From the NCBI RefSeq assembly GCF_032163395.1, contig NZ_CP119968.1:2217501-2281500 (forward strand): a stretch of DNA of 64,000 nt. Reading direction: 5' to 3'. The notes beneath the pieces were generated by a model that was not told where the DNA came from, searched no databases, and was given only the letters and a program-made list of their open reading frames with translations. Both the position numbers and the translations under genes were made by a program. This DNA comes from Gloeocapsopsis dulcis. Its GTDB lineage: Bacteria > Cyanobacteriota > Cyanobacteriia > Cyanobacteriales > Chroococcidiopsidaceae. Shown here piece by piece: positions 52,448 to 55,363 of this stretch; the stretch's first letter is position 1; each line of letters opens with the position of its first letter.

Positions 52448-53113
52448 AGTGATAAAGCTAGTACGATCGCAATCGATTTAACTTGTTAGACGCTTGATTG
52501 CGAGATGCAAGCTTTACAGAAGATTTGAGGAAAGCCCACCACTTTTAAGGGTGGAATGTAGTGGAATGCACTAATAACAGCGCCGTCAAATAATACTTGA
52601 CTGCACAGCAGAGGTGTGGGATTATACTTATGGCACTGCGGTAATACGCCTAGATAGCCAAGATTGGGTTCTCCCCAACTACAATGCTCAGCTACGTGCG
52701 ACATAGTGTAGGAAAGAGGTGTAAGTAATTGAATAAATCGTTTCAAACGCGGTCGGGCAGTCCGTGTGTGCTTGTGGACGTATCCAAACGGGGAGACTTG
52801 AATGCTTGCATTTAGGTTTCTAGGGAGGACGGTTGAAGCAAGAATCCCATCGGCTTTCAACCGTGGGAGTGTCAATTCTGGGTAGTCAGGGGAAGCACCT
52901 TTGAGTAAAGGCTCATCTTGATTTTTTAGGTATTGGTTGAAGAAAGCCAACGTGTACTCATTGATAACTTTCGCACCTCGACAAGGTTCGATGGAGCCAA
53001 GTGTTTGCTTGATTGGGGGTGCTTTGAGTTACCAACTTGATTTTTTCCATCTAGAGCTTTATCTCTAATTCTTATAAGTTGAGAACGTAAAAACATAATT
53101 TTTTGTTCCAAAA
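52448..53113. other. Decayed region with tnpB remnant
   Basis: No intact gene. A minus-strand open frame (52486-52950) reads antisense through the tnpB tail and right end and is therefore judged spurious. A plus-strand frame at about 52585-52700 (AEVWDYTYGTAVIRLDSQDW, VLPNYNAQLRAT) looks protein-like but has no start and no family I recognise. Confidence 0.5.
52730..52880 (+). mobile_element. IS200/IS605 tnpB C-terminal tail and right end, remnant
   Basis: The plus strand reads SNAVGQSVCACGRIQTGRL and, after a stop, GGRLKQESH, the C-terminal tail typical of many cyanobacterial TnpB proteins. It is followed by the terminal hairpin GAATCCCATCGG ... CCGTGGGAGTGTCAA (52843-52880), the right end of the element. 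The catalytic part of TnpB is gone. Confidence 0.65.
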
Positions 53114-54313
53114 CTAAGATTTTTGATCGAGACGCAGGGCTTGTTCTAAAGCTAATTTCTCTTTTGCTCTATGTGCATAAGGTTGTAATTTAGTTAAACT
53201 CCATCCTGTTAAAATACTCAAATCCTCAATACTTATTCCCTTTACTAACATCTCAATACACCAAGTTTGTTGCGCTTGCTCAATTGCTGGAACTTTGTCT
53301 TCTGGTGTTAATAATCCTTCCGTCAATACTCGCCAACGCTCTTTGATTTCTTGCTCTGTTATCGGCATTCCGCTATCATTAAGAAATAAGGCAGAACAAT
53401 CATCTTTACGGCTTTTGAGCCACTGTGTTAAAGGATTACGAGTATAGGAACCATAGCGTTTACCCATAATCCATTGATTAACAGGAACTTGTCTCACTGA
53501 ACCTTGCGTAATTTGTAATAAGTGTTCATGCGAATTGCTAATTTGATGACTTCGCTTTAAGTAAGTAACATCTACTGGCGATAAACCTGCAGCAAATAAA
53601 ACGTAAACAAGTGCATAATCTTGCAATCCTGAGTTTTTAGCTTGTTGCAGAATTGTCTGAACTAAATTTGCTGGTAAATCTGCTATCTCTTTTCTTTCAG
53701 TAGTGTGCTCTAATCTTGTAGAATCTATATTTTCACCTAAAAATAGTTTAACCAAGTCATTTAAAAACTCTTCTCTGTCACTCGATTCATTAGCTTCAGT
53801 CGCTAATTCAATAATTGCGTAGCCTAACAAAATATAATTAAGTAAGCTTGCAAGCTTTTCGACGGGTAATTGACTGTGTAACTGTTCGCGCTGCATTACT
53901 GCTGCAAGATATTCGGCAACATCATGACTAATTTGATGGATGTATTTGCCGATAATACGGCGATTTTCTACGGGATATTGCCTTGCTTCTCCTAAAATAG
54001 ACAGCACTAATTCGGGAAATTGGGCGATCGCCGCTAAGCGATCGCTTGCATACCATTGAATCGCTTGCGCCACACTATGCTTTTGTTTGGCTTGCTGGCG
54101 CAACGTTTCACCCAACTCTTGAAACACCGCCGACTCGGAAATTACTGCAAGCAGTAAACCGTGCTTATTTCCAAAATGCCGAAATAGTGTCACTTCATTA
54201 ACTTGGGCTAACTCAGCAACTGCTTTTGTTGTCGTTTCGGTAACTCCCTGAGTCGCAAATAATTCAATTGCTGCATTAATTAATCGTTGTCGAGTCGAAG
54301 TTTGAGTGGACAT
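53114..54313 (-). CDS. TetR-family regulator with tyrosine-recombinase-like C-terminal domain
   Basis: About 399 aa, roughly twice a usual TetR. Residues 1-60 are the TetR helix-turn-helix (RQRLINAAIELFATQGVTETTTKAVAELAQVNEVTLFRHFGNKHGLL), about 60-200 the ligand-binding helices. From about residue 230, LQDYALVYVLFAAGLSPVDVTYLKR, PLTQWLKSRKDD and MLVKGISIEDLSILTGWSLT-KLQPYAHRAKEKL follow the core order of tyrosine recombinases, but the catalytic Arg/His residues are absent (only a Tyr in PYAHR remains). The ATG at 54313 is preferred; 54346 is possible. It diverges from an acyl desaturase. Confidence 0.8.
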   Translation of the reverse strand: MSTQTSTRQRLINAAIELFATQGVTETTTKAVAELAQVNEVTLFRHFGNKHGLLLAVISESAVFQELGETLRQQAKQKHSVAQAIQWYASDRLAAIAQFPELVLSILGEARQYPVENRRIIGKYIHQISHDVAEYLAAVMQREQLHSQLPVEKLASLLNYILLGYAIIELATEANESSDREEFLNDLVKLFLGENIDSTRLEHTTERKEIADLPANLVQTILQQAKNSGLQDYALVYVLFAAGLSPVDVTYLKRSHQISNSHEHLLQITQGSVRQVPVNQWIMGKRYGSYTRNPLTQWLKSRKDDCSALFLNDSGMPITEQEIKERWRVLTEGLLTPEDKVPAIEQAQQTWCIEMLVKGISIEDLSILTGWSLTKLQPYAHRAKEKLALEQALRLDQKS

Positions 54314-54358
54314 ACCGGCTGGTTTCAATAAGCGGGAGTACTGCATTAGTTATAACTT

Positions 54359-54375
54359 TGCAAGTAGCACTTGCA
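54359..54375. promoter_or_regulatory. Candidate TetR operator, site 1
   Basis: TGCAAGTAGCACTTGCA is a 17-base palindrome (7-bp arms, 3-base centre) 46 bases upstream of the regulator ATG at 54313. It is nearly identical to site 2. Both lie between the divergent regulator and desaturase genes, as expected for an operator. Confidence 0.7.
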
Positions 54376-54404
54376 TTTTTAGAGCATTGTTGTTAGGGTA
54401 GGAA

Positions 54405-54421
54405 TGTAAGTAACACTTGCA
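54405..54421. promoter_or_regulatory. Candidate TetR operator, site 2
   Basis: TGTAAGTAACACTTGCA matches site 1 at 15 of 17 positions and is 46 bases away centre to centre. Two copies in one divergent intergenic region argue against chance. Confidence 0.7.
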
Positions 54422-54433
54422 TCTCCTTCTAGA

Positions 54434-54489
54434 GTAAAGAGCGATCGCTCTTTACAGAAGGTGTACTTGACCAGTGTTGTCTGCACTGG
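54434..54489. promoter_or_regulatory. Desaturase promoter region with two further palindromes
   Basis: A perfect 22-base palindrome (54434-54455) has arms GTAAAGAGCGA and its exact complement and is centred on a HIP1 octamer. Downstream, TTGACC at 54467 is a possible -35, followed by CCAGTG (54471-54476) / CACTGG (54484-54489), a 19-base inverted repeat in the presumed spacer. The desaturase ATG is at 54518. Confidence 0.5.
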
Positions 54490-54517: not shown

Positions 54518-55363
54518 ATGACGACACACTCAGCCATCAACACTGAGGGTAAGCAGCCGCTTGCTCTAAGTTGGCTCAACGTGGCATTCTTCGGTACAGT
54601 TCATGCGGTAGCGATCGCAGCTTTTTGGAATTTTTCTTGGTCTGCATTGGGAGTGACGCTATTTCTCCACTGGTTGTTTGGCAGTATTGGTATCTGTTTA
54701 GGCTACCACAGGCTTTTAAGTCACCGCAGCTTGCAGTTGTCTCCCAAATGGCTGGAATATGCGATCGCAACTCTAGGCGCATTAGCGATTCAAGGCGGAC
54801 CTATATTTTGGGTAGCAAGTCATCGACTGCATCATGCCCATACCGAAGATAAAGATAAAGATCCTTACTCGTCACAACGCGGTTTTTGGTGGAGTCACAT
54901 GCTGTGGATTTTCTATCCACGTCCAGAGTTTTTTGACCACGAAAATTATAAAAGATTTGCTCCCGACTTAGCCCGTGACGCTTACTATCGTTGGTTAAAT
55001 CGTAATTTTTTGCTTCTCCAACTTCCTCTAGGCATTTTATTGTACGTTTTGGGGGGATGGTCTTTTGTTATCTATGGTATTTTTGTGAGATCAGTATTAC
55101 TTTGGCACACGACTTGGTTAATTAATTCTGCAACTCACCTGCGCGGTTATCGGAACTTTCAAGTGAGTGACAATTCTCGAAATCTTTGGTGGGCAGCGAT
55201 TTTAACGTATGGCGAAGGCTGGCATAATAACCACCATGCTTACCCCAATGTGGCAAAAGCAGGACAGCGTTGGTGGGAAATTGATATGACTTGGTGGGCA
55301 ATTAAACTCTTGCAAACTGCTGGTTTAGCTAAAAAAGTTGTCATGCCTACAACCAAAGCTTGA
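54518..55363 (+). CDS. Acyl-lipid/acyl-CoA desaturase (delta-9 type)
   Basis: 281 aa, a membrane fatty-acid desaturase with the three His boxes HRLLSHR (about 72), HRLHHAHTE (about 107) and HNNHHAYP (about 243), and four hydrophobic segments. This pattern is of the DesC-like delta-9 desaturases that introduce the first double bond in membrane acyl chains, using ferredoxin electrons. It diverges from the TetR-like regulator with paired palindromes between them, which suggests repression of desaturation in response to an acyl or other ligand (inference). Confidence 0.9.
   Translation: MTTHSAINTEGKQPLALSWLNVAFFGTVHAVAIAAFWNFSWSALGVTLFLHWLFGSIGICLGYHRLLSHRSLQLSPKWLEYAIATLGALAIQGGPIFWVASHRLHHAHTEDKDKDPYSSQRGFWWSHMLWIFYPRPEFFDHENYKRFAPDLARDAYYRWLNRNFLLLQLPLGILLYVLGGWSFVIYGIFVRSVLLWHTTWLINSATHLRGYRNFQVSDNSRNLWWAAILTYGEGWHNNHHAYPNVAKAGQRWWEIDMTWWAIKLLQTAGLAKKVVMPTTKA

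Follow-up and report, generated by a model that had tools for sequence, protein, structure and literature searches.

We report that a gene in the window (the whole stretch of 64,000 nucleotides analysed here) encodes a TetR regulator fused to a tyrosine-recombinase catalytic fold from which most catalytic residues have been lost. The fusion is widespread in Cyanobacteria, across many families, and stands head-to-head with a fatty-acid desaturase gene, with a conserved pair of palindromes between the two. With modest confidence, we regard it as a desaturase regulator of the DesT/FadR kind in which the dead recombinase domain serves as a non-catalytic accessory module. The genome carrying the locus measures 5.6 Mb and its relatives are cyanobacteria. 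The features of the locus are collected in Table 1.

Table 1. Features of the fusion locus and of the divergent desaturase gene, in window coordinates
Feature	Position	Strand	Remarks
TetR / dead tyrosine-recombinase fusion gene	53114..54313	-	399 aa from the ATG common to relatives
Tyrosine-recombinase catalytic fold without catalytic Arg/His/Lys	53117..53680	-	residues 212-399
Tyr379 codon, nucleophile position of tyrosine recombinases	53177..53179	-	alignment to XerA
Linker	53681..53737	-	residues 193-211, low model confidence
TetR ligand-binding/dimerisation helices	53738..54142	-	residues 58-192, AlphaFold helices and FadR PDB matches
TetR_N helix-turn-helix	54143..54283	-	residues 11-57, Pfam PF00440, E 2.6e-13
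Operator 2 (presumed), TGCAAGTAGCACTTGCA	54359..54375		perfect palindrome, upstream of regulator gene
Candidate -10 element TACCCT, regulator gene	54395..54400	-	read from alignment
Operator 1 (presumed), TGTAAGTAACACTTGCA	54405..54421		one mismatch, 46 bp from operator 2
Candidate -10 element TAGAGT, desaturase gene	54430..54435	+	read from sequence
Fatty-acid desaturase, head-to-head with fusion gene	54518..55363	+	Pfam FA_desaturase, E 1.4e-21

Architecture of the fusion and fate of the catalytic residues

The minus-strand frame is open, and its longest ATG start, at 54346, gives a protein of 410 aa. Relatives start at the second ATG, 54313, which gives 399 aa; because they begin there, we consider the 399-aa form the better protein, and residue numbers count from this codon. 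The coordinates proposed in the preliminary description, 53114-54313, therefore hold: the frame is real, lies on the minus strand and has its start at the relatives' ATG.

Conservation was followed in an alignment of 65 members, composed of the window protein and 64 of 76 full-length named fusions, and TetR_N (PF00440) was matched in every one of them. Behind this helix-turn-helix (HTH) we recognize, with moderate confidence, the all-helical ligand and dimerisation domain of TetR proteins: the model has helices over residues 62-192 and TetR structures are among the top PDB matches. For the TetR half of the full model, the best matches include the FadR regulators 3whb and 3whc (with stearoyl-CoA). 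The linker that follows measures 17-81 residues in the 65 members, and AlphaFold gives it a pLDDT below 50 at residues 194-208. The mean pLDDT of the full protein is 81.8; blocks of the C-terminal half mostly score 85-96, with a dip to 64 at residues 281-290, and the pTM of 0.50 leaves the relative placing of the two halves uncertain.

The C-terminal half carries a recombinase fold. Residues 214-385 match Phage_integrase (PF00589), covering profile positions 4-171 of 172; the 28.3 bits of the window protein lie just above the curated cut-off of 27.1, and 58 of the 65 aligned members are matched independently at E ≤0.001 (best E 2.7e-12). When 27 of 55 distinct fused proteins were made into a domain profile, its search of PDB sequences picked out archaeal XerA (E 3.2e-9, profile positions 4-183 of 190). 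Modelled alone, the C-terminal domain reaches a mean pLDDT of 95.0 and a pTM of 0.90, and its best solved match is again XerA (Foldseek E 1.8e-8; Z 20.8, rmsd 3.5, 174 aligned), with XerH, the Tn1549 integrase and, lower down, Cre also present. The matches across 58 of 65 members, the XerA profile match and the agreement of AlphaFold and Foldseek on the fold together show that the integrase match is not due to chance. Structures of MrpR, YopR and SroF match the domain model at Z 11.8-13.0, compared with 20.8 for XerA; the list re-scores Foldseek matches, and values below about 13 may mean a mere common arrangement for helical models, so these rows support a common superfamily less than the Xer rows do.

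Pfam and AlphaFold agree that the N-terminal core-binding domain of tyrosine recombinases is absent and that the TetR protein occupies its place. The fusion of a TetR regulator with a tyrosine-recombinase-like domain, as first proposed from the letters of the DNA, is thus what Pfam, the sequence profile and the structure all recover. The profile search of the C-terminal half returned the integrase/XerA match with catalytic residues missing, and structure prediction returned helices and three strands in recombinase order; the unrelated all-helical fold that would have spoken against the proposal did not appear.

Aligned to XerA, the window protein has Ser245 at Arg-I and E345-Q-A-Q348 at the HxxR motif, and the hairpin Lys is absent; the final His/Trp position is Trp371. 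The absence of catalytic Arg and His had been noted before, and Ser245, E345 and Q348 bear it out. The nucleophile position, which had gone unmentioned, is kept as Tyr379. Across the 65 members, the Arg-I column holds S 56 times, L 5, T 2, R 1 and F 1; His is absent from the HxxR His column; Arg-II is Q in 51 and R in 14; the nucleophile is Y in 60 and F in 5; and no beta-hairpin Lys is conserved in the family. A second set, of 55 distinct fused proteins, partly overlaps the first (some genomes are common to both) and has Arg-I in 1, Arg-II in 7, His in none and Tyr in all 55. Because both catalytic arginines, the first histidine and the lysine are replaced in the window protein, its recombinase domain is presumably inactive and unable to cut DNA. 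In some distant rows an Arg and the following His survive (QARHTW, compared with LRHSFA in XerA), and these look like remnants of an active ancestor.

Could the domain still act on DNA through its conserved Tyr, for example by single-strand nicking or topoisomerase-like relaxation? The retention of Tyr (60/65 and 55/55) and of the second Arg position in a minority of rows (14/65 and 7/55) would fit such an activity, but Phe takes the place of Tyr in 5/65, Arg-I is lost in 64/65 and the HxxR His occurs in no row, which makes it very improbable. MrpR, moreover, kept its Tyr without recombining: it is described as a DNA-binding repressor with a tyrosine-recombinase fold that has lost recombination and has kept Tyr and Lys, with Arg-I and the catalytic His gone (PMC10516654).

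The nearest stand-alone relatives seen are XerC-like recombinases (L164, L165, L166 and L171) with catalytic residues present, from genomes of the same class. Two short stand-alone frames correspond to no more than the final third of the dead domain: L168 (G551:C2:729494-729697; 90 aa) and L169 (G530:C3:2527460-2527642; 132 aa). Both genomes also carry the full fusion, which in the case of L168 lies about 15 kb away.

Conservation, spread and the divergent desaturase

The dead domain is under purifying selection. Its dN/dS is 0.08-0.16 (15 non-independent pairs among six close relatives), and in the same six relatives the values are 0.07-0.16 for the TetR ligand domain and 0-0.12 for the helix-turn-helix. 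Mean pairwise identity over the 65 members is 0.81 for the HTH (residues 7-57), 0.65 for the ligand domain, 0.27 for the linker and 0.67 for the dead domain. Of 19 genomes from the host's family, 17 have the domain. Together with the TetR half it occurs in at least 41 of the 386 genomes of a sample of the phylum, all of them in the host's class. In a sample of that class, the domain profile matches 194 of 388 genomes, a figure that includes five weak matches in one family (f27), three of which were inspected and are XerC-like enzymes.

In a quick tree, regulators without the domain are nested among fused ones with moderate support (two g61 rows, and L192 inside family f28), and family f27 sits on a long, uncertain branch. 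Because the domain-less rows fall among the fused rows, the recombinase domain was probably lost in at least two lineages. Such losses would fit a mere passenger, an accidental and tolerated fusion without function, but this explanation is hardly credible in view of a dN/dS of about 0.1, a conservation that equals that of the ligand domain while the linker varies freely, and the retention of the domain across many families. In three draft genomes (L179, L182 and L184) the fusion is present as two adjacent frames, through either sequencing error or real splitting. An origin of the fusion in phages was also considered and set aside: 18 pattern matches in viral contigs included no confirmed relative, and none was found in phage records.

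Desaturases set membrane fluidity in cyanobacteria. The divergent gene matches acyl-CoA desaturase 1 (4ymk; E 2.2e-27) and has the histidine boxes HRLLSH, HRLHH and HNNHH, which fit the pattern HR-X3-H, HR-X-HH, HN-X-HH described for delta-9 desaturases (PMC2593844). It accompanies the fusion in 127 of 129 distinct fused loci; in one of the two exceptions the contig ends, and in the other the gene is truncated at its start. The same neighbour stands beside all three split genes, counted separately from fused and domain-less ones, and beside 12 of the 13 genes scored as domain-less, one of which (L183) is a fusion cut off by a contig end. We therefore presume that the desaturase gene is the target of the regulator. 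Four other window neighbours were also looked for, the oxidoreductase being present in 5 of 58 loci (most loci with 1.5 kb per side). Downstream of the regulator gene, a 154-aa frame with a TTG start (52486-52950) has no Pfam match and may not be a gene.

The fusion also occurs on plasmid pP742403 of Gloeothece citriformis PCC 7424, where it is annotated just as a TetR/AcrR regulator and the palindrome pair is spaced 47 bp. On this 29-kb plasmid the regulator-desaturase cassette (L195; 15903-23135) lies near a gene for an orange-carotenoid-protein N-terminal domain and an ssl1498-family light-harvesting-like gene. As the plasmid is typed mobilizable, the regulator-desaturase pair can travel as a unit, and on pP742403 the pair may belong to a photoprotection set.

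The presumed operator pair and the possible role of the dead domain

Two copies of a palindrome with the consensus TGCAAGT-NNN-ACTTGCA lie in the intergenic region between the fusion and desaturase genes. Both had been pointed out in the preliminary description and both are real, one perfect and the other with one mismatch, and conserved. Allowing up to three mismatches, the window holds 7 matches to the palindrome against 5.2 expected, so that none but the two intergenic copies is conspicuous; besides the perfect copy, the genome contains no exact match. The pair is present in 124 of 128 distinct fused loci, in a count anchored on the TetR profile, which avoids start codons set too far upstream. 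The spacing is 46-48 bp in 109 of these loci (47 bp in 59, 46 in 42 and 48 in 8) and 43-53, 85 or 98 bp in the other 15. As for the four rows without a pair, one is at a contig end (L131), one has an N-terminally short frame and a late profile anchor (L136), and in two (L162 and L163) the second operator is weak or absent. Before deduplication, the pair was counted in 129 of 134 regions, some of the single operators being due to start codons too far upstream.

A TAnnnT-like element adjoins operator 1, followed by TARCA, and is conserved between the operators. This element and the similar one on the desaturase side suggest a layout with operator 1 inside the promoter region that the two genes share and operator 2 in the leader of the regulator gene; a sigma-70 scan of the intergenic region gave no full match. 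On the plus strand, operator 2 followed by TTTTT (54359-54385) scores as a terminator-like hairpin (one found, 0.2 expected), and in many relatives operator 2 is likewise followed by a run of T, there in the direction of the regulator gene.

Five one-mismatch sites occur elsewhere in the genome. They were considered as a wider regulon and rejected: of the four inspected, three are inside long frames and the fourth is about 500 bp upstream of the next frame. At up to two mismatches, the genome holds 55 sites, compared with 13 for the reversed pattern, and given this excess the regulator may conceivably have a wider set of targets.

The preliminary description had gone further and proposed that a second DNA-binding module on a TetR protein could bridge two sites such as these palindromes. 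In its specific form, the domain would be a second sequence-specific DNA-binding module and each half of the protein would hold one element, with the DNA looped between them. The presence of the operator pair in 124/128 fused loci at a near-fixed spacing agrees with this, as do, weakly, the single operator of 7/11 domain-less relatives and the precedent of MrpR, a solved dead recombinase-fold protein that is a DNA-binding repressor. The two palindromes have the same sequence, however, so that one kind of domain should read both. Besides, 4 of the 11 domain-less relatives beside a desaturase keep two operators, 47-49 bp apart, and six of the seven single-operator rows come from one genus. These 11 relatives exclude the contig-cut fusion L183 and also L193, which has neither desaturase nor in-register operator and is probably not an orthologue; they include, among the four that keep the pair, one with a broken TetR frame of 131 aa (L194). 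As domain-less relatives keep both the desaturase (12/13) and the pair (4/11), the domain is not required for the gene pair or the operator pair.

Operator spacing is also unrelated to linker length (Spearman 0.01, n=108; linkers of 3-75 residues by profile ends). We looked between the operators for a site of the recombinase fold, the candidate being a third palindrome, TTGTTA-NNN-TAACAA. It was rejected: its outer arms were complementary in 132 of 276 cases against a shuffled mean of 136.6, counted over the 69 of 115 distinct fused spacers that had a TAnnnTA core and enough flank. This core is present in 82 of 123 spacers and would more simply be a -10-like element. The covariation count thus yielded no conserved DNA element at fused loci that could be assigned to the recombinase domain. 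Of the earlier reading, the TetR half, the recombinase fold, the lost Arg and His and the palindromes have stood; bridging we consider improbable, since 4/11 relatives keep the pair without the domain and the inter-operator motif lacks covariation.

The role of the recombinase fold is the least certain part of our account of the fusion regulator. Two features of the dead domain are strongly conserved: a basic stretch, GKRYGSY..NPL..WLKSRKD, and the helix that carries and follows the Tyr (consensus YARRAREKAALEQA). At +2.1 on average over the 65 members, the domain's net charge is low, which makes any argument for DNA binding from charge a weak one. Recombinase protomers pack through their C-terminal helix, and the domain could be a protein-protein module alone, turning the TetR dimer into a tetramer or recruiting a partner with no contact to DNA. 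The conserved Tyr helix, the barely positive charge and the DNA site that the covariation count between the operators did not find would all suit this possibility. We nevertheless judge it rather unlikely, since the basic stretch is strongly conserved and the inactive relatives of the fold include MrpR, whose DNA binding as a repressor was shown experimentally. Because of this precedent of a dead recombinase fold binding DNA as a repressor, an accessory role in DNA contact and/or oligomerisation is favoured over specific bridging.

A proposed mechanism and its relation to known regulators

Under the accessory-module explanation, the fusion would control the divergent desaturase gene as a one-component regulator and would also regulate its own gene. 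A dimer of the TetR half would bind the palindrome TGCAAGTNNNACTTGCA, as DesT and FadR-type TetR proteins do, and two dimers would sit on the two operators, mostly 46-48 bp apart. The dimer on operator 1 would cover the promoter region of both genes, the one on operator 2 the site where the regulator's transcript begins. With a fatty-acyl ligand in its pocket, either acyl-CoA or, as the hosts are cyanobacteria, perhaps acyl-ACP, the dimer would release the palindrome or hold it more tightly. The C-terminal half would be a former Xer-type catalytic domain on a flexible linker, probably unable to cut DNA. Most likely it touches DNA near the operators, adjacent protomers, or both, and thereby helps to keep the operator pair occupied. 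The loss of residues needed for cutting points to an enzyme recycled as a component of a regulator.

The dimer binding of palindromes and the sensing of acyl ligands are established for DesT and FadR. DesT of Pseudomonas and FabR are, like the fusion, TetR proteins tied to desaturase or unsaturated fatty-acid genes, with acyl sensing presumed in the present case. They belong to a different organism group, and the window protein reaches 32.9 bits with the FabR model, below its curated cut-off of 151; neither DesT nor FabR is known to have a second domain. The FadR proteins of Bacillus and Thermus, which regulate fatty-acid degradation, are acyl-CoA-binding members of the TetR family and are among the best solved matches of the fusion's TetR half; they lack a second domain, and with the NCBIfam FadR model the window protein scores 31.4 against a cut-off of 200. 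For DesT, control of a desaturase and discrimination between saturated and unsaturated acyl-CoA have been described (PMC8872791).

For the C-terminal half, the best match in both fold and sequence is XerA/XerC. These enzymes have a core-binding domain, replaced in the fusion by the TetR protein, and the catalytic residues that the fusion has lost; in the alignment, XerA lacks the GKRYGSY..NPL stretch, which is specific to the fusion family. MrpR/YopR of SPbeta and SroF of phi3T are recombinase-fold phage regulators that have the catalytic fold in common with the fusion. MrpR, described as a DNA-binding repressor, resembles the fusion family in that Arg-I and His are missing and Tyr is kept (PMC10516654). 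The three are phage proteins without a TetR part, in contrast to the fusion with its TetR HTH, and MrpR keeps the core-binding domain and the Lys, both missing in the window fusion.

Each half of the fusion therefore has known relatives, and the novelty lies in the combination of the halves, in how broadly it is conserved and in its link with a desaturase and a pair of operators. Among the matches listed in the open-access literature, no description of a TetR-tyrosine recombinase fusion was found. A dedicated regulator beside a desaturase, with conserved operators, is a directly testable switch, and the regulator, which stands beside the same gene in forms that have the recombinase fold and forms that lack it, offers a natural experiment on the contribution of the dead domain. 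The MrpR study suggests that the recruitment of recombinases as transcription factors has been commoner than was expected, and the fusion adds a cellular case to that suggestion (PMC10516654). More tentatively, at somewhat less than an even chance, we propose that an ancient cellular regulator of membrane-lipid desaturation, chromosomal and not of phage, captured a whole recombinase catalytic domain and put it to use in coupling two operators by clamping or bridging the DNA. If true, this capture would mean that a recombinase has been domesticated for transcription control and kept across much of the cyanobacterial class.
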